From assembly GCF_000024005.1 (NCBI RefSeq), contig NC_013132.1:7000001-7064000 (forward strand): a DNA stretch of 64,000 nucleotides, read 5' to 3'. Below, piece by piece: positions 23,304 through 33,440 of the stretch. Origin of the DNA: Chitinophaga pinensis DSM 2588 (GTDB lineage: Bacteria; Bacteroidota; Bacteroidia; Chitinophagales; Chitinophagaceae). Below the pieces are notes generated by a model, which was not told where the DNA came from, made no database searches, and saw only the letters and a program-made list of their open reading frames with translations. Position numbers and translations under genes: made by a program. The first letter of the stretch is position 1. Each line of letters opens with the position of its first letter.

Positions 23304-25487
23304 TCATTTCATACTAACCTGTTTACTATCCTGTACATTAAGTTTGCCATTGTCTTCCGTGATCAGTGTCACATTACTCATACTGATATTGCTGCCAACG
23401 ATACAGTCACCCGCTTTCTTTGCCTTGATGGTGATATCTTTCAGATGGATATCGCTGATTGGCATCTCCGGTAATCCGCGTATAAAAATGGCTTTCTCCG
23501 CACCGTGACATACCACATTGCTGATATGGAAGTCTTTGAACTGTGGAGTAGCATCTGTTACAGGAAAGAGTTCAACTTTTACCGCTTCGCGTTTCTCTCC
23601 GGATAATGGCACAGGATCTTTCGCCATGTAATACATGTCAAGGAGGATCGCTTCCGCCGGTATATCCTTCATGTTGATGTTATTGACGTAGATCTTTTCT
23701 ACTATACCACCACGGCCACGGGTTGTTTTAAAACGCAGACCGATATCGGTACCGAGGAAAGAACAATTGGAAACAAACAGGTTTCTCGCACCGCCGGACA
23801 TTTCACTGCCCACAACGAAACCGCCATGTGCGTGATATACCGTACAGTTATTGACGATCACGTCTTCTGTAGCTACACCACGCTTACGACCCTGTTCATC
23901 ACGACCGGACTTGATACAGATGCCATCATCACCCACATCAAAGGTGCAACCTTCAATACGTGCATAACGACAGGATTCCAGGTCAATACCATCGCCATTC
24001 TGGGCATACCAAGGATTTTTAGCGTATACGTCTCTTAAAGTAATATGTTCGGTCAGCAGCGGATGCAGACACCAGGCCGGTGAATTCTGGAAAGTCACCC
24101 CTTCCAGTAATACATATTTACAGGATGTGATGCTGAGCATATTAGGACGGAGAAAGTCCTTGATATCGTTGTAATCCGCAGCCGTTTTACCTGATTCAAT
24201 CACACCGGCGAGTTTGGTATGCGATCCTTTCTGGGACTTTGCCGAAGGGTACCAGGTCTTTTTGTCTTCTCCTTCTATCCCCCCCGAAGCCAGCAATTTC
24301 TTCCATTGCGATTCTGTCAGTTTATCTTTCTTGACAATGCGCCAGGCATCGCCGCCACCATCTATGATCCCTTTACCCGTAATAGCGATATTTTCTGCGT
24401 TTACAGCAGATATCGGCGCCTGACAGCGCATGGCTTTTAACCCTTCATATGTCGTCTCTACAAGCGGATACTGGTCAAAATCAGTTGTAAACTGTAACAG
24501 GGCATTAGGTGCGAGGTACAGGTTTACATTACTTTTCATGACGATAGGACCGGTCAGCCACAATCCCGCCGGTATCATCACCACACCTCCGCCGTTCTCA
24601 CTAGCTTTGGTAATGGCAGCATTGATGATTTTACTGTTCAGCGTCACACCGTCTGCTTTCGCCCCCAATGCGACGATACTGAGTGTATCTCTTCTGAAAT
24701 GCGGCTCATAGATTTCGGGCAGGTCAAAACGGTATTTGCCTTCGAATCCGGTCTCCTGCAGATATTTCTCCAGCCCGATATGTTTATCCCTGATCTCTCT
24801 GGCTACCAGTCCGGCAACCAGGGTAGCGCCATAAGTATTGAAATGGGTATTATCCGTTACGCCATTAGGCAGGGTTGTATAGTGCCCTGCGGGAGTGGTT
24901 TTAAACAGCTTTTCGGAACCTTGTACGCCCTGCTGTACCAGTAAGGCTTCACTGCTTTTATGCAGATCGATCAGCGGTACTTTCAGACTGGCGGCAATCT
25001 CGCGTACTACCCCGGGGTATTCGCCATGCTGGTCAACAAAAGCGCCTTTTTCATCAAACTTCCTGCGCATTACCGGCGTAACCAGGATAGGATTAGCTTC
25101 TTTGGCCCGGGCTTCTTTCACAAAACGGATCAGGTTATCCTTATAAGCGCCCCTGGGAGCCGCAAAACGGGTCGAATCATCCTTTTTTGAGTCATTATGC
25201 CCGAATTGGATAATAACCCAGTCTCCGGCCTTTAATTGCACTAAAACGCTATCCCAGCGATGCTCATTGATGAAACTTTTGGTACTGCGACCATTCACGG
25301 CATAGTTTTTTACCGTCACGCCTTTCTGCAGGAACAAGGGGAACAACTGTCCCCATCCTCTTTCGGGATTGTCAGCGAGGGGTTTATCGGCCATGGTGGA
25401 ATCTCCGATCATAAACACGCGCGGCGGATCGTCTGTCGGTATCCAACTGATCAAAGGAAAAAGCAGCGCCAATAGATACAACTTCAT
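23304..25487 (-). CDS. two-domain pectinase: CE12 acetylesterase fused to GH28 polygalacturonase
   Basis: 727 residues behind a signal peptide (about 1-18). Residues 22-245 are an SGNH hydrolase of CE12 rhamnogalacturonan acetylesterase type: nucleophile Ser30 in MIGDSTMAD, GHND at 96-99, Asp212 and His215 in DNTHFN. Residues about 265-720 are a right-handed beta-helix of GH28: NGDGID (497-502, acid Asp499 and Asp502), DD at 520-521, HGG at 554-556 and RFK (585-587) match the four GH28 motifs. The protein would deacetylate pectin and cleave the exposed galacturonan. It is co-transcribed with the susCD pair 20 bases upstream. The fusion is clear; exo or endo mode is not. Confidence 0.92.
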   Translation of the reverse strand: MKLYLLALLFPLISWIPTDDPPRVFMIGDSTMADKPLADNPERGWGQLFPLFLQKGVTVKNYAVNGRSTKSFINEHRWDSVLVQLKAGDWVIIQFGHNDSKKDDSTRFAAPRGAYKDNLIRFVKEARAKEANPILVTPVMRRKFDEKGAFVDQHGEYPGVVREIAASLKVPLIDLHKSSEALLVQQGVQGSEKLFKTTPAGHYTTLPNGVTDNTHFNTYGATLVAGLVAREIRDKHIGLEKYLQETGFEGKYRFDLPEIYEPHFRRDTLSIVALGAKADGVTLNSKIINAAITKASENGGGVVMIPAGLWLTGPIVMKSNVNLYLAPNALLQFTTDFDQYPLVETTYEGLKAMRCQAPISAVNAENIAITGKGIIDGGGDAWRIVKKDKLTESQWKKLLASGGIEGEDKKTWYPSAKSQKGSHTKLAGVIESGKTAADYNDIKDFLRPNMLSITSCKYVLLEGVTFQNSPAWCLHPLLTEHITLRDVYAKNPWYAQNGDGIDLESCRYARIEGCTFDVGDDGICIKSGRDEQGRKRGVATEDVIVNNCTVYHAHGGFVVGSEMSGGARNLFVSNCSFLGTDIGLRFKTTRGRGGIVEKIYVNNINMKDIPAEAILLDMYYMAKDPVPLSGEKREAVKVELFPVTDATPQFKDFHISNVVCHGAEKAIFIRGLPEMPISDIHLKDITIKAKKAGDCIVGSNISMSNVTLITEDNGKLNVQDSKQVSMK

Positions 25488-27183: not shown

Positions 27184-30144
27184 TCAGAATTCTACGTTCA
27201 GACCGGCTACATACATTTTCGTCAGCGGATTACTCAGGTCTCCTCCTCTCTCCGGATCATAGTCCTTCACTTTACTGAAGGTAAACAGGTTCTTACCCGT
27301 TACATAGACACGCAGATTGGTCAGGTGCAGGTTCTTCAAAGCTGAACCCGGCAATGTATAACCCAGGGAAATGTTACGGATCTTCACGAAAGAACCGTCT
27401 TTGTAACCCAGTGTTCTGATGAAAGGTGTACCATCTTTGGAAACACTGGCATTCGGACGCGGATAAGCGTTTGTCTCGTGCTCAGGCGTCCAGTAATCCA
27501 GCGGTGCACTATTCTCAAGGCCCTGCGGATCATATTTCGCTGCATATTCTGAATTGATCCATTGACCAATACGGGCGAACACATAAACGTTCAGGTCAAA
27601 ATTCATAAAGCGGATATCGTTATTCAGACCACCACTCCAGGTAGGTACCTGTCTTCCGAGTATCACACGATCCTGTGAATTCAGCACACCATTTCCATCC
27701 TGATCGCGCACTTTGATATCGCCGGGTTTATAACCAAAGGCACTGGCGGCATCTGCTTCTTTGGTCTGCCAGATACCTGTCTTTTCATAGTCGTAAAACA
27801 CGCGCACCGGGTAGCCGATAAACCATCCGTTCGCCACATCATTGGTATTTGCATCCGCCAAGGCCACAATCTCTTCTTTGTTTCTGGAGAATACGATATT
27901 GGAATTCCAGCTGAAGTTTCTGCCTCTGACATTGACGGTATTGATACCGATTTCTATTCCCCTGTTCCTGGTCTTACCAATGTTCTGTATCACAGTACTT
28001 ACACCGGAGGAAGATGGCAGTGTTCTTTGCAGTAACAGATCTTTGGTCTTCGTATCATACAGATCGATCGTAGCACCGATTCTGCCATCAAAGAAACTCA
28101 TATCCAGGCCGATGTCTGTAGTGGCAGACAGCTCCCATTTCAGGTTCCTGTTACCGATCTGACTACCGATACCATATGCCAGTGCGGAATTAGTATCGTC
28201 ATAAGAGAATGGGATCTTGGTCAGGTAACTGGCGGTTGCATAGGGCGGTACCGCATCATTACCCGCAAGACCATAGCTGGCGCGTATTTTCAGATCGCTG
28301 AACACACGCTGTGATTTCATGAAGGGTTCGTCGGAGACACGCCATGCACCTGCTACAGAAGGGAAGAAAGCCCATTTATTTCCTGGCGCGAGTTTGGAAC
28401 TACCATCCGAGCGACCTGTGAGTGACAACAGGTATTTTCCTTTATAGTTGTAGTTGATACGACCGGTAAACGAGATCAGTTTATTCGCCATGTAGCTGGA
28501 ACGGATTGCGATACCGCTTACATTGTTCTGCATTGCGTAATATAACTGAGCGGGCAGCAACTGGCCTTCACCCTGTAAAAAACTGGAATCCCGCTGATCA
28601 GAGAGTAAACTGGCTACACCCGTCAGACCGAAAGTATGGTCTCCCAGTTTCTGGGTATAGTTCAGTACGTTTTCCCAGCTGATATACCGTTTATTGCCGC
28701 TGTTATACTGTGATCTGGAAGCCGATGCCGTAGAACGTTCGATCGTGTTTTTGGAAGCGAAGATCCCTGTGCGGGCATTATCCAAAGTAACACCCAGGTT
28801 GGAACGGAAGGACAGCCCCTTTAAAGGTGTCAGTTCTACATAGGCATTGACAAAGGTGCGGGTTACACGACCATTGTTCTGATAGGCATTGGGTTGTTCG
28901 TCCGCCAGCGGATTGATCATTGAGCCCATATTCGGGAACAGGATCAGGTTGCCGTTTTCATCATAGGGAAGATTCAGCGGTACAATCTTATTGGCCTGGT
29001 TCAGCGGATCACGACGATTGTCCTGGTTGTAGTAAGTCACCTGGCTCTGCATACCTGCTTTCAGGTAATCGTTGATCGTCTGATCGATATTTAATCGGGC
29101 AGAATAACGTTTCAGGTGATCCAGTTTGAAGATGCCTTTTTCGTCGAAATAATCCAGCGAGAGATAGACTTTCGTTTTCTCAGAGCCACCGGAAACACCC
29201 ACCTGGTAATCCTGCTGTAAACCATCATGGATCAGCATGTCTGCATAGTCGGTCCAGAGGTTGTTCTGAATAGATGCTACTTCGGCAGCATTGAAGATCA
29301 GCGGGTCATCCGCTTCACTTTTCCAGCGGCCGGTGGTACGGTTCGCTTCACGTTTCTGTGCAACATACTGCGGACCGGTAGACATGGCAGGATAGCCGGC
29401 TACCTGTGAGATACCTGCATAAGTATTCACAAAAACACGTGGTTTACCCGAAGCGCCTTTTTTGGTGGTGATGATAATAACACCGTTTGCACCGCGGGAT
29501 CCGTATACGGCGGTGGAGGAAGCATCTTTCAGTACTTCCATCGACTGAATATCGTTGGGGTTAATATCCTGTATATTTTCGTATTGCACACCGTCTACGA
29601 TGTACAGCGGACCATTATCCGCACGGATAGACCTGTTACCACGTACGGTAACATTGATCTTTGCACCAGCGGCGCCATTGCTTTTGGTGATATCGACACC
29701 TGGCAGTTTACCCTGTACGGATTCCATTACGTTGGTGGAAGGTACTTTTCTGAGTTCTTCACCTTTCACAGATGTAACGGCGCCTGTCAGGTCACGTTTC
29801 TTTACTTCACCATAACCGACTACCACGACTTCATCCAATTGCTTATTATCTTTTTCCAGTTTCACTACAATGTTGCTGTTACCATGAATGTTTTGTGTCA
29901 AAGCCTGATAGCCGAGGTAACTGATTAACAGTACACCAGTCTGGGCATCTGGAACGGTAAGGGAAAATGTGCCTGTGGCGTCGGTCTGTGTGCCTGTTGT
30001 GGATCCTTTAAGTTGCACATTGACCATAACCAGCGGTTCTCCGGTTGCTGCGTCGGATACCCGCCCTTTGATTGTCTGGCGTTGCGCAAATGTCACACTG
30101 ACACTTACTAGCAAAAACCAGCAGATGATGAGTAGTTTTTTCAT
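27184..30144 (-). CDS. SusC/RagA TonB-dependent outer-membrane transporter (pectin locus)
   Basis: 986 residues. Signal peptide (1-20), a carboxypeptidase-D-like beta domain (about 22-105: IKGRVSDAATGEPLVMVNVQLKG), a TonB box-like segment followed by the plug (VVVGYGEVKKRDLTGAVTSV, SANVxES-type VPSTNVMESVQGKLPG, DASSTAVYGSRGANGVIIITTKKG) and a 22-strand barrel ending in VAGLNVEF with a terminal Phe. It imports oligosaccharides energised by TonB. As the first gene of the minus-strand operon it leads into susD, CE12-GH28, GH105 and uxaBAC. A LacI-type palindrome lies about 185 bases upstream. Confidence 0.95.
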   Translation of the reverse strand: MKKLLIICWFLLVSVSVTFAQRQTIKGRVSDAATGEPLVMVNVQLKGSTTGTQTDATGTFSLTVPDAQTGVLLISYLGYQALTQNIHGNSNIVVKLEKDNKQLDEVVVVGYGEVKKRDLTGAVTSVKGEELRKVPSTNVMESVQGKLPGVDITKSNGAAGAKINVTVRGNRSIRADNGPLYIVDGVQYENIQDINPNDIQSMEVLKDASSTAVYGSRGANGVIIITTKKGASGKPRVFVNTYAGISQVAGYPAMSTGPQYVAQKREANRTTGRWKSEADDPLIFNAAEVASIQNNLWTDYADMLIHDGLQQDYQVGVSGGSEKTKVYLSLDYFDEKGIFKLDHLKRYSARLNIDQTINDYLKAGMQSQVTYYNQDNRRDPLNQANKIVPLNLPYDENGNLILFPNMGSMINPLADEQPNAYQNNGRVTRTFVNAYVELTPLKGLSFRSNLGVTLDNARTGIFASKNTIERSTASASRSQYNSGNKRYISWENVLNYTQKLGDHTFGLTGVASLLSDQRDSSFLQGEGQLLPAQLYYAMQNNVSGIAIRSSYMANKLISFTGRINYNYKGKYLLSLTGRSDGSSKLAPGNKWAFFPSVAGAWRVSDEPFMKSQRVFSDLKIRASYGLAGNDAVPPYATASYLTKIPFSYDDTNSALAYGIGSQIGNRNLKWELSATTDIGLDMSFFDGRIGATIDLYDTKTKDLLLQRTLPSSSGVSTVIQNIGKTRNRGIEIGINTVNVRGRNFSWNSNIVFSRNKEEIVALADANTNDVANGWFIGYPVRVFYDYEKTGIWQTKEADAASAFGYKPGDIKVRDQDGNGVLNSQDRVILGRQVPTWSGGLNNDIRFMNFDLNVYVFARIGQWINSEYAAKYDPQGLENSAPLDYWTPEHETNAYPRPNASVSKDGTPFIRTLGYKDGSFVKIRNISLGYTLPGSALKNLHLTNLRVYVTGKNLFTFSKVKDYDPERGGDLSNPLTKMYVAGLNVEF

Positions 30145-30216
30145 AACGTAACGTGTTGTATCTGTCTTCTAAAATTGGGTAATTTGTTAGTCCGCAATGG
30201 AAATAGCGATATTGCT

Positions 30217-30242
30217 ACAGTGGCAATATATTGTGGCACTGT
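30217..30242. promoter_or_regulatory. inverted repeat upstream of susC
   Basis: ACAGTG (30217-30222) and CACTGT (30237-30242) flank the self-complementary CAATATATTG. It lies about 75-100 bases upstream of the susC start, a plausible activator or repressor site. Confidence 0.4.
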
Positions 30243-30328
30243 TCCTCTTCAGTTCATCCTTTGGGTCTCCCCGAAACAATTCTACGCCGATATTCATTAA
30301 TACGGAAAGGAATGGAAGTATTTATTTA

Positions 30329-30342
30329 CGCAAACGTTTGCG
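30329..30342. promoter_or_regulatory. LacI-family operator palindrome
   Basis: CGCAAACGTTTGCG is perfectly self-complementary with a central CG and AAACGTTT core, the form of LacI/GalR-family operators. It lies 185 bases upstream of the pectin susC and 186 upstream of the divergent gene. The LacI-type regulator at 33503 is the nearest candidate. Confidence 0.65.
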
Positions 30343-30527
30343 GAAAAGCGATCAGCAGCAAGCTGCCAGACGGAGAAAACAGACTAGTCAAAAGCTACCA
30401 GGAAGACGGGTGAAACAGAACAATTGATAAATTATAAATAAAACTATATCTTTAGATCCATCTAAGAGACAAATCCCTGCAACAAGGCTAATATTACCGT
30501 TCAATCCCTGTACCTAAATCAGCTACC

Positions 30528-31754
30528 ATGAACACACATGCTGACACCGCAATAGCGCAGAAAAGCAAATCTATTGCCGGCCATACATCCCGGACCACTA
30601 ACAATACGGCTGTAAGCCAGCTCGTGAGCGATCGCCCCGAAGACACCCTGCAAAGGAAGTGGCAGAATATTGCTGATAACAGTTCACAGGTGCAGCAATT
30701 AAAACAGCAACAGCAGATGGCAGATACCAGTCCTCAGCAGCTCCTGCAGCGAAGGCAGACGGATGCCATCAGTAACAGTCCGAAGTTGACAGCACAACTG
30801 CAACAAAAATCCACCATGGCGGAAAGCAATGTGTTACAGGCAAAACCTGCTCCACAGGCAGGAGCCTTGCGGATGGTACATATCAATCACGCAGCGCCCG
30901 TACAAAGAAGAGAGATTCCGGTGATTCAAACCGACCTGGATGCATTAAAGAATCTGGCAATGCCGGTCTTACCGGATTGGGCATCCGCTGCCAGTATTGT
31001 AGCCCGGCAAACGTTGATTACACAGAAACGCACTGCATTAGATGCATTTGTAGTGGAAGTGGACGAGAAGAAAGATGAATACATGGCCCAGCGCACTTTT
31101 ACCCAGCCAATGCAATCCGCAGCACATATCAAAACCAGACTCGCGGCGTTACCTGGTGAAATCACCAGGCTGGATGCAGATATTGCAGGAGGATCTGCTG
31201 TAGAACCGGCAAGACCTCCGGCAGGTACGATGTGGGGACCAGTGGCGGCAACACACAGAAGCTGGAAAGCATTGAACGATAACCTGGCAACAAATACGGC
31301 AACCAGAATCTCAAGACTGGCAGAACAAACCAGGTCTACTGCCGATTTACCGGTAGCAGATCTGCTTGCGGCAGTAATAGCGGCCACTAAGAAACTGGAT
31401 GACGAGCAGGCTTTGCTTAACAGGCGGAAAAAAGAACGGTATTTTGAGGATGTGATTACCAGTGTACAACCAGTTTGCACAGATTTACATAATGAAGGAA
31501 CATGGGGCCATGGCCCTTCTGCCCTGGGAGTTTTCGCATATACACTGCCTGCCTCTCTCAACGGCATTGACCGTTGTATCGACCCATTCACTGTGCATAT
31601 TCATAAACCCCATGCCGGCAAAGTAGTAAGAAGAGCGCATGTGCGGGGCGGAGAATTTGACAACATAATCCTGTACAGCGGAGAGCCTGTGGGGCCCGGT
31701 GTTATCGGAGGCTGGGAAGGACGTGCACTTGCTAAAATCTTTGCAGCATTATAG
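30528..31754 (+). CDS. orphan protein with injection-system-cargo-like N-terminus and unknown C-terminal domain
   Basis: 408 residues, no signal peptide or membrane segment. After a Thr/Ser-rich start comes DRPEDTLQRK, then four tandem 16-residue repeats (42-57, 58-73, 74-89, 90-105) aligned on A-D-N-S-P-Q (ADNSSQ, ADTSPQ, ISNSPK, MAESNV). DRPE...QRK with NSPQ repeats is the N-terminal pattern I know from Bacteroidota proteins that carry the DUF4157 (eCIS core) domain. Here no DUF4157 and no HExxH follows. A helical middle (about 150-300) leads to a compact C-terminal domain (305-408) with Cys317, Cys350 and several His (HIHKPH 357-362, His371). I do not recognise that domain; a toxin or effector is a guess. 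No injection-system genes are nearby. Confidence 0.75.
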   Translation: MNTHADTAIAQKSKSIAGHTSRTTNNTAVSQLVSDRPEDTLQRKWQNIADNSSQVQQLKQQQQMADTSPQQLLQRRQTDAISNSPKLTAQLQQKSTMAESNVLQAKPAPQAGALRMVHINHAAPVQRREIPVIQTDLDALKNLAMPVLPDWASAASIVARQTLITQKRTALDAFVVEVDEKKDEYMAQRTFTQPMQSAAHIKTRLAALPGEITRLDADIAGGSAVEPARPPAGTMWGPVAATHRSWKALNDNLATNTATRISRLAEQTRSTADLPVADLLAAVIAATKKLDDEQALLNRRKKERYFEDVITSVQPVCTDLHNEGTWGHGPSALGVFAYTLPASLNGIDRCIDPFTVHIHKPHAGKVVRRAHVRGGEFDNIILYSGEPVGPGVIGGWEGRALAKIFAAL

Positions 31755-31758
31755 TAAT

Positions 31759-31801
31759 TTATAGCAGGGAGCAGCTGTTATTGCTATGCTTCCCGCTATA
31801 A
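31759..31801. terminator. hairpin between convergent genes
   Basis: TTATAGCAGGGAGCA (31759-31773) and TGCTTCCCGCTATAA (31787-31801) pair at 13 of 15 positions, between the 408-residue protein gene and the GH43 gene. The U-run is weak. Confidence 0.55.
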
Positions 31802-31811
31802 ATATCAGTAC

Positions 31812-33440
31812 TTAATCTACCCTGAACCAATCATAGTCCGCAAACCCGCTGTCATTGATCTGTGTATTACGCATACAAAAGATCCCTACCTTGGCTCCTA
31901 CCCATCTTCCAGGCTGCGCTGTAAACGGTTTCCCCGCATCAACAAACTTCGTACCGTCGGTACTATAGCTAAACTGACACACCGCTCCTTTATCTACTTT
32001 CACCCGAAACCAACAGGTATTACCATCAATAGTCTTCAGGACTTCCTGTTCTTCTGCCGCACCTTTATCCGCTTTCAGACAGGACGCATATAAGAGTTGC
32101 AGTTGATTATCTTTCTTCATCAATGAGATACCCGCATAATCAACACCCATAATAATCAAGCCGGTCCGCTCTCCTTCCAGCGCAGGATTCGGTGTAAATG
32201 TGCATTTAGCAGTCACAGTAAAGCTATCTGCCGGAAATTTCTGTAACAACAGGTTCGGCGCCTGCCAGTAGTTACGCGAAGAATCAGGCATTTTCGCAGA
32301 AAACAATCGCAATACGCCTTTCGCCGGATACATCATCATCCAGGTAGATACCGGGTTAGCCTGCCATTGCCATTGCAATCCCAATGTCGCACTGTTGAAT
32401 TCGTCTGACTCAGGCGGTGTCATCACGGGCATACCCGCCAGTGGTTTACGGTAAGTCATGACCGGCTCTCCTTTCCCATCACCATCTGCATCCATACCTA
32501 TCACCGGCCAGTCTTTCACCCATTGCATAGTTTGCAAATGCACCACACGACCATAAGCGCCTTTATCCTGAAAATGCAGGAACCAGCTACTACCGGAAGG
32601 CATATCTACCCAGGCTCCCTGATGCGGACCATTCACAACACTCCTTCCCTGATCCATCACTATTTTCTCTTCATATGGACCATAAATGTTCCGGGAGCGC
32701 AATACCAGTTGCCAACCCGTACTCACACCTCCGGCTGGTGCAAAAATGTAATAGTAACCATTGCGTTTATACAATTTGGGACCTTCCAGGGTGGGGTGTG
32801 CACCATGTCCGTCGAAAACCAGTACACCTTCATCTGTGACAGCCGTACCCGTTTCATTCATACGATTGAGTGTCAGGATACTCTTGATACCGGCGCGGCT
32901 ACCCGCCCAGGCATGTATGAGATAGGCTTTGCCGTCATCATCCCACAGCGGACAAGGATCTATCAGTCCTTTACCAGCTTTTACCATTACAGGATCAGAC
33001 CAGGGACCTGCTGCATTTTTCGCCCTGATCATGTATATACCGAAATCAGGATCAGGGTAATAGATATAAAATTCTCCTTTATGATAACGAATGGAAGGCG
33101 CCCATACACCATTGCCATGTTGTACCTTGCTGAAATGCGCAAAAGGAGGCTGCCGTAACAGTGCATGTCCCACCAGTTGCCAGTTAACCAGGTCTTTCGA
33201 CTGCAAAATGGGCAATCCCGGGGCTGCATTAAAACTGGAAGCCGTCATATAAAACTCATTACCCGCCCGACAAACATCCGGATCAGAATAATCGGCATTT
33301 AATACAGGATTTTTATAGGATCCATTTCCGAGATCAGCTACCCAGGAAAGGGAGCGCTGCTGACCATAAAACAGCGTTGGGAGGCACAAACCGGCCAAAA
33401 TAAACAGCAGCTTTTCCTTCATCTGCAAAGCGTTTTTCAT
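31812..33440 (-). CDS. GH43 family glycosidase with C-terminal beta-sandwich
   Basis: 542 residues with a signal peptide ending FYGQQ. Residues about 38-340 are a five-bladed propeller of GH43: YKNPVLNADYSDPDV holds the catalytic-base Asp, LIDPCPLWDDDGKAYLIH the second Asp, and HPTLEGPKLYKRNGYYYIF the acid Glu. Residues about 355-540 are a concanavalin-like domain (SDEFNSATLGLQWQWQANP) as in beta-xylosidase/arabinofuranosidase members. It probably trims arabinose or xylose side chains, which fits pectin or hemicellulose use. An alternative start at 33422 (MKEKLLFILAG) is possible. It is transcribed divergently from a LacI-type regulator 62 bases away. Confidence 0.9.
   Translation of the reverse strand: MKNALQMKEKLLFILAGLCLPTLFYGQQRSLSWVADLGNGSYKNPVLNADYSDPDVCRAGNEFYMTASSFNAAPGLPILQSKDLVNWQLVGHALLRQPPFAHFSKVQHGNGVWAPSIRYHKGEFYIYYPDPDFGIYMIRAKNAAGPWSDPVMVKAGKGLIDPCPLWDDDGKAYLIHAWAGSRAGIKSILTLNRMNETGTAVTDEGVLVFDGHGAHPTLEGPKLYKRNGYYYIFAPAGGVSTGWQLVLRSRNIYGPYEEKIVMDQGRSVVNGPHQGAWVDMPSGSSWFLHFQDKGAYGRVVHLQTMQWVKDWPVIGMDADGDGKGEPVMTYRKPLAGMPVMTPPESDEFNSATLGLQWQWQANPVSTWMMMYPAKGVLRLFSAKMPDSSRNYWQAPNLLLQKFPADSFTVTAKCTFTPNPALEGERTGLIIMGVDYAGISLMKKDNQLQLLYASCLKADKGAAEEQEVLKTIDGNTCWFRVKVDKGAVCQFSYSTDGTKFVDAGKPFTAQPGRWVGAKVGIFCMRNTQINDSGFADYDWFRVD

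Follow-up and report, generated by a model that had tools for sequence, protein, structure and literature searches.

Extracellular contractile injection systems (eCISs) carry protein cargo, and the closest described examples to the protein considered here come from AlgoCIS of Algoriphagus machipongonensis. Its cargo proteins Cgo1 and Cgo2, which have a similar disordered N-terminus, a DUF4157 domain and differing C-termini, are reported to fill the tube (PMC8894135). In PVC, N-terminal signal peptides are described as enabling loading with the AAA ATPase Pvc15, and their truncation as abolishing Pvc15-dependent loading (PMC11495950). According to two reports, a conserved signal sequence was not detected for PVC and Afp (PMC8213781, PMC11297309). 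A further group for comparison is the eCIS-associated toxins (EATs), among which EAT14 of Chitinophaga rupis was toxic to both E. coli and yeast (PMC8213781, PMC11297309). The EAT candidates of Geller (2021) were chosen inside eCIS operons, with DUF4157 favored, while Danov (2024) scanned whole genomes with distance to the core among the strongest features (PMC8213781, PMC11297309). In one study, almost all known eCIS toxins lay no more than ten genes from the last core gene (PMC11297309). As these reports describe them, searches for eCIS toxins rely heavily on operon proximity and DUF4157 (PMC8213781, PMC11297309).

We analyzed a window of 64,000 nucleotides, positions 7,000,001-7,064,000 of the 9.13 Mb single-contig genome of Chitinophaga pinensis DSM 2588 (NC_013132.1), and within it a gene for a 408-aa protein, hereafter the orphan (Table 1). 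We think it likely that this gene encodes an effector of one eCIS class, here called class 2, that is unlinked to the eCIS cluster and loaded through an N-terminal leader; its loading, injection and activity we infer by analogy. Like Cgo1 and Cgo2, the orphan belongs to a set of Bacteroidota proteins with a common N-terminus, in the orphan possibly disordered, and different C-termini; unlike the orphan, the AlgoCIS proteins have DUF4157, sit in an eCIS cluster and were loaded experimentally (PMC8894135). PVC effectors would resemble it in needing an N-terminal signal to be loaded with a cluster-encoded AAA ATPase, and they have signals that can be grouped by alignment, but their signal homology is rare in lineage Ia and the effectors studied are encoded directly downstream of the operon (PMC11495950). 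Variable C-terminal domains are a point of likeness to the EATs. What appears to be new is a candidate eCIS cargo protein away from the operon, lacking DUF4157 and marked by an alignable leader; a conserved DUF4157-independent leader was not found in the open-licence literature as far as it was covered.

Table 1. Features of the orphan gene and its surroundings (window coordinates).
Feature	Coordinates	Strand	Basis
Putative eCIS cargo gene, 408 aa	30528..31754	+	ORF; YR627 ortholog at the same place, 76% identical; dN/dS ~0.19
Leader, residues 1-75, also heads unrelated proteins	30528..30752	+	Profile A2 matches; first detected with family alignment
Four 16-residue repeats, residues 42-105, fourth degenerate (by eye)	30651..30842	+	Lag-16 autocorrelation
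Helical middle, residues 130-300, long helices predicted	30915..31427	+	AlphaFold2 model; 71% identity to YR627
C-terminal domain, residues 305-408, matched no family	31440..31751	+	Residues 301-408: 86% identity to YR627, dN/dS 0.06
Inserted block, missing from nine syntenic loci	30355..31811		G036 alignment; orphan absent in nine
Promoter-like element, identical in YR627	30424..30455	+	Sequence comparison
Terminator-like hairpin	31757..31803	+	YR627 sequence differs, also folds (-22.0 and -30.1 kcal/mol)

The first-pass annotation, made from the sequence of the window, had described four repeats followed by a helical middle and had remarked on the absence of DUF4157. Autocorrelation confirms the repeats (BLOSUM62, lag 16): the score per pair is 0.94, whereas shuffled sequences average -0.22, and 0.94 was reached by none of 2000 shuffles at lag 16 and by 0.65% at any lag from 5 to 32. 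DUF4157 is indeed missing: neither of the two Pfam hits reached the cut-off, and a search of NCBIfam gave no hit. The AlphaFold2 model is poor overall, its C-terminal part included, and yielded no structural assignment, with pLDDT below 50 at residues 1-41 and 62-126; block values in the middle are 77-83 over residues 151-180, 75-87 over 281-310 and below 50 over 189-273. N-terminal hydrophilicity, considered as a cargo marker, was not distinctive, the orphan ranking 8th among 42 window ORFs, and this, if anything, counts against a class-2 effector.

A leader common to proteins with different C-termini

When the alignment of the orphan's family (four members) was searched against 79 Chitinophaga genomes, the partial matches were mostly N-terminal (E 4e-9 to 0.05) and belonged to proteins of quite different sequence; two matches, L021 and L029, were removed as non-leader. 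The leader profile, A2, has 75 positions and 14 rows. Eleven rows are matches from this search and the rest are the window protein, P0003 and P0005, so that A2 scores within the genus are partly by construction, an effect from which matches in new genera and in the protein database are free. At E<=0.01, A2 matches 17 of the 79 genomes; 19 of the matching proteins score below E 1e-20, and three match weakly (four rows that were second matches within ORFs already counted are left out). The orphan is the sole match in its own genome at this threshold, and the DUF4157 protein of its own class-2 cluster therefore has no leader match.

Most of these proteins lack DUF4157. By motif, it occurs in 3 of the 19 strong genus matches, all three kin to one another, and is missing from the other 16, and Pfam searches of ten leader proteins found it in one and nothing above cut-off in nine. 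Grouping 36 leader proteins by their C-termini gave 25 groups (BLAST, E 1e-3, a threshold that leaves room for remoter kinship between groups), with DUF4157 called by sequence motif and Pfam run for ten proteins. One group (G014b, G020, G039b, G058b and P0015) mixes members with and without the domain. Not among the 36 are P0001 and P0006, which duplicate entries already included, P0012 and P0014, each 99% identical to P0011, and P0003, P0004 and P0005; the weakly matching proteins of G221, G069 and contig 11 of G058 were also set aside. G107, G132b and G132c are in the set but truncated where the fetched locus ends.

A canonical leader taken from one DUF4157 protein, with words from residues 1-80 only, retrieved 14 database proteins including itself, with Flavobacterium among the sources. 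Eight have DUF4157, one has annexin repeats and five have no Pfam domain, three of the five being near-identical. The leader is thus not found mainly in unrelated proteins, which agrees with the tie to eCIS-type proteins proposed in the first-pass annotation. No upstream motif common to the leader genes was evident by eye.

Several leader proteins deserve separate mention. P0019 joins the leader to annexin repeats (PF00191), which are mostly eukaryotic, and contains an HExxH motif. The same tandem leader pair occurs in three genomes (L060:7640-10294, L061:9221-11955 and L062:8058-10823), the upstream gene with DUF4157 and the downstream gene without it. Genome G029 encodes two leader proteins without DUF4157 (L065:9898-11397 and L064:9592-10704) that have a C-terminal HExxH motif and are possibly metallopeptidase cargo. 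Near the G017 leader gene lie two ORFs that we take to resemble an insertion-sequence transposase pair (L067:6505-7856).

Association of the leader with class-2 eCISs

The absence of sheath and tube genes from the window, recorded in the first-pass annotation, stands, but an eCIS is not missing from the genome. Matches to DUF4157 (three), sheath (two), tube gp19 (four) and Pvc16_N (two) all fall outside the window, and the genome holds two eCIS clusters, the class-2 cluster 2.1 Mb from the orphan and the other at about 0.37 Mb. The orphan lies more than ten genes from any eCIS core and has no DUF4157, and both facts count against its being an effector; its neighbors lack DUF4157 too, a domain that is common but not essential in or beside eCIS cargo. 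Ten proteins encoded in the class-2 cluster were scanned: eight correspond to eCIS components (cap, sheath, tube, CIS_tube, spike, PAAR, gp25 and AAA), one is a GH18 protein and one matched nothing.

eCISs are widespread in the genus, having been reported in 89% of Chitinophaga by Geller et al. (PMC8213781); in our set, DUF4157 occurs in 75 of 79 genomes, and Pvc16_N and a sheath match in 74 each. Class 2 was defined as the genomes with a full-length match to the sheath of the cluster at 4.87 Mb in the C. pinensis genome. It comprises 31 of the 79 genomes (745-1112 bits, 65-100% identity), with the next full-length match at 378 bits and 46%, though other sheaths match in part, at the C-terminus, with up to 60%. 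Every one of the 17 leader genomes belongs to this set of 31 (Fisher p 3.3e-9, with kinship ignored and the link noticed post hoc), and in genomes of at least 7.5 Mb the p value is 1.9e-4, again with kinship ignored. In five leader genomes (G014, G017, G032, G039 and G058), class 2 is the only sheath match; it is likewise the only one in G034, G038 and G066, which have no leader.

Because the link within the genus was post hoc and ignored kinship, genomes of the wider family were examined. In 394 Chitinophagaceae genomes (leader E<=1e-5, class-2 sheath E<=1e-140, with the best 14 leader and 3 sheath candidates at most scored per genome), the leader was found in 7, the class-2 sheath in 16 and both in 6 (p 1e-8). 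With ten same-genus genomes excluded, the sheath occurs in three of four leader genomes versus 12 of 384 overall (p 9e-5), the three representing three genera. The exception, G221, has a weak leader match of 44 positions ahead of a DUF4157 protein and no class-2 sheath match. Within this family sample, the leader is almost confined to class-2 genomes, a second respect in which the proposed tie to eCISs held up.

Leader genes also occur at class-2 loci themselves. In G073, a leader protein without DUF4157 is encoded just upstream of a minus-strand GH18-like gene, Pvc16 and sheath, in the slot held in C. pinensis by a 201-aa DUF4157 protein; the G073 leader was a weak first match (E 0.014) and is a row of A2. 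In G132, a protein with both the leader and DUF4157 is encoded between the last baseplate-region gene and an opposite-strand AAA ATPase gene of the class-2 cluster, and its leader lies outside A2. The orphan's N-terminal segment is accordingly common to proteins encoded at eCIS loci. In C. pinensis, the GH18-like protein (PF00704) is encoded at L010:8177-10264 (about 4.868-4.870 Mb), next to the class-2 eCIS but on the other strand, and G073 and G132 have homologs in the corresponding position (40% and 29% identity, respectively). To our knowledge, it is no standard eCIS part.

The leader might instead serve for sorting or chaperone binding in a general system of polymorphic secreted proteins that happens to share these large genomes. 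Leader genes stand single or paired among unrelated genes in the 13 neighborhoods viewed, and 14 of the 31 class-2 genomes have no leader match, as such a system would allow; the latter count also weighs against an effector and makes the leader at most one cargo route. We regard a general system as unlikely, since the association holds in large genomes and recurs in other genera, none of the 48 Chitinophaga genomes without class 2 has the leader (43 of them having another sheath), and leader genes sit at the class-2 loci of G073 and G132.

The effector reading, for which an orphan eCIS effector or toxin had been the starting proposal, is supported by these comparisons and draws on leader sharing, the association with one class and the leader genes at the two class-2 loci. 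The eCIS components of the C. pinensis class-2 cluster, the C-terminal constraint amid divergence described below and the precedent of AlgoCIS Cgo1 and Cgo2 lend it further support. Apart from that precedent, each of these points was computed directly, as was the insertion. By analogy with AlgoCIS cargo and PVC signal peptides, the first ~75-105 residues would be a class-specific loading leader, probably recognized by the class-2 loading machinery, for which the Pvc15-like AAA ATPase of the cluster is the best candidate. Packing of the protein into the tube would then occur despite the 2.1 Mb between gene and cluster, with the helical middle perhaps serving as a spacer or pilot segment, and after injection the C-terminal domain (~305-408) would act in the target cell.

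A leader that belongs to one eCIS class and can be found by sequence search would reveal effectors ranked low by searches based on operon proximity and DUF4157, and it would offer a defined tag for testing cargo choice. Leader proteins also supply C-terminal domains without an assigned family that can be screened for new activities.

Relatives, divergence and the C-terminal domain

The orphan has few relatives. A search of 5.8 billion proteins, in which the best 7995 candidates by common words were scored, gave five matches including the query itself; this search and that with the C-terminus were limited to proteins with a length ratio to the query of 0.55-1.75. The family among these candidates consists of the query and three relatives, namely P0002 from Chitinophaga sp. 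YR627 (76% identical), P0003 (72%) and the fragment P0004 (79%). P0005, which has DUF4157, matched on the leader only (E 1e-3). With the C-terminal 113 residues alone, 156 candidates were scored, and at E<=10 nothing beyond the four family members matched. Full-length members occur in 2 of the 79 Chitinophaga genomes, C. pinensis itself and G068, and a scan of genome contigs with six peptide patterns matched YR627 only. No relatives were matched in plasmids or phages, and the 188 stretches that two short patterns picked out in viral contigs include no relative.

The C-terminal domain had been singled out earlier as compact, bearing His and Cys residues and unrecognized, and each of these last two points is upheld. 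C350, H357, H359 and H371 are invariant across the four family members, and C317 is present in three of four. No known family, housekeeping families included, was found for the domain in Pfam, NCBIfam or PADLOC, and PDB profile searches gave weak hits only. No toxin domain was recognized anywhere in the protein (Pfam, NCBIfam, PADLOC), which counts against an effector. The conserved His/Arg residues had also suggested a BECR-type nuclease, an idea that no test result supports.

Compared with its YR627 ortholog, the orphan has diverged far more than its neighbors, at 76.2% identity versus 94.6-99.7% for six neighboring proteins and a dN of 0.145 versus 0.001-0.025. The divergence is uneven: identity and dN/dS are 71% and ~0.67 for residues 1-41, and 73% and ~0.28 for residues 42-105, while dN/dS is 0.23 for residues 130-300 and lowest at the C-terminus (Table 1). 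From these segment values, the C-terminus is the constrained part of a rapidly diverging protein. The first 41 residues are weakly constrained in this single comparison, a point against an effector loaded through its leader.

These values bear on the alternative that the gene once encoded a DUF4157 cargo protein, is now in decay and survives by chance, with its product no longer being loaded. The missing DUF4157, the fast divergence of leader and middle, and the high dN/dS of residues 1-41 would all be expected of such a gene. We nevertheless find decay improbable, as the window, YR627 and P0003 all have the protein at full length, dN/dS is 0.19 overall and 0.06 at the C-terminus, the hairpin is retained despite altered sequence, and 16 of 19 strong leader proteins in the genus are also without DUF4157.

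A self-contained insertion in a glycan-utilization locus

The orphan gene lies between two genes that, from their sequences, we take to encode SusC (27184-30144, minus strand) and a GH43-type protein (31812-33440, minus strand). In a survey of 12 chosen Chitinophaga genomes, nine had the GH43 protein; SusC, GH43 and a LacI-type gene are syntenic in all nine and the orphan is absent from all nine. SusC and GH43 are ~232-329 bases apart in these empty loci versus 1667 in the window. The closest empty site, that of G036, matches the window through 30354 and from 31812 onward, and 25 bases specific to G036 take the place of the block. Two of the nine genomes (G015 and G069) carry a leader match elsewhere. 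The gene forms a self-contained unit inserted between SusC and GH43. The first-pass annotation was right to call it inserted, and the nine empty sites bear this out, but it had placed the gene beside a pectin locus and the gene lies within it. The promoter-like element may resemble the Bacteroidota -7 element, TAnnTTTG.

Although the gene sits between SusC and GH43 in both the window and YR627, it is very improbable that the protein is an accessory of the surrounding glycan-utilization locus, given its strand opposite to both neighbors, its own promoter-like and terminator-like elements, its absence from nine of nine syntenic loci and a leader common to proteins in other settings.

No immunity gene was found beside the orphan, its neighbors in the window and in YR627 being SusC and GH43 on the other strand. 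The largest small ORF upstream (76 aa, 30197-30427) lies mostly in sequence common to the empty site, and only 57 bases separate the orphan from the downstream end of the block. For an unlinked effector, the target might therefore be eukaryotes such as fungi; speculatively, the absent immunity gene fits either a eukaryotic target or an activity that depends on delivery. Contractile syringes may take up cargo whose genes are dispersed over the genome. We offer more tentatively a broader reading, in which class-2 Chitinophagaceae eCISs would read an alignable, repeat-bearing N-terminal address. As this address would be independent of DUF4157, effectors could be single mobile genes spread over the genome and swapped between strains, their products being recruited to the particle from afar, and the orphan would be one of them, lacking an immunity gene and bringing a new activity in its C-terminus.

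Elsewhere in the same 64-kb window, positions 23304-25487 encode a protein that, by the look of its sequence, we take to be a fusion of an SGNH/GDSL esterase with a GH28-type pectinase.
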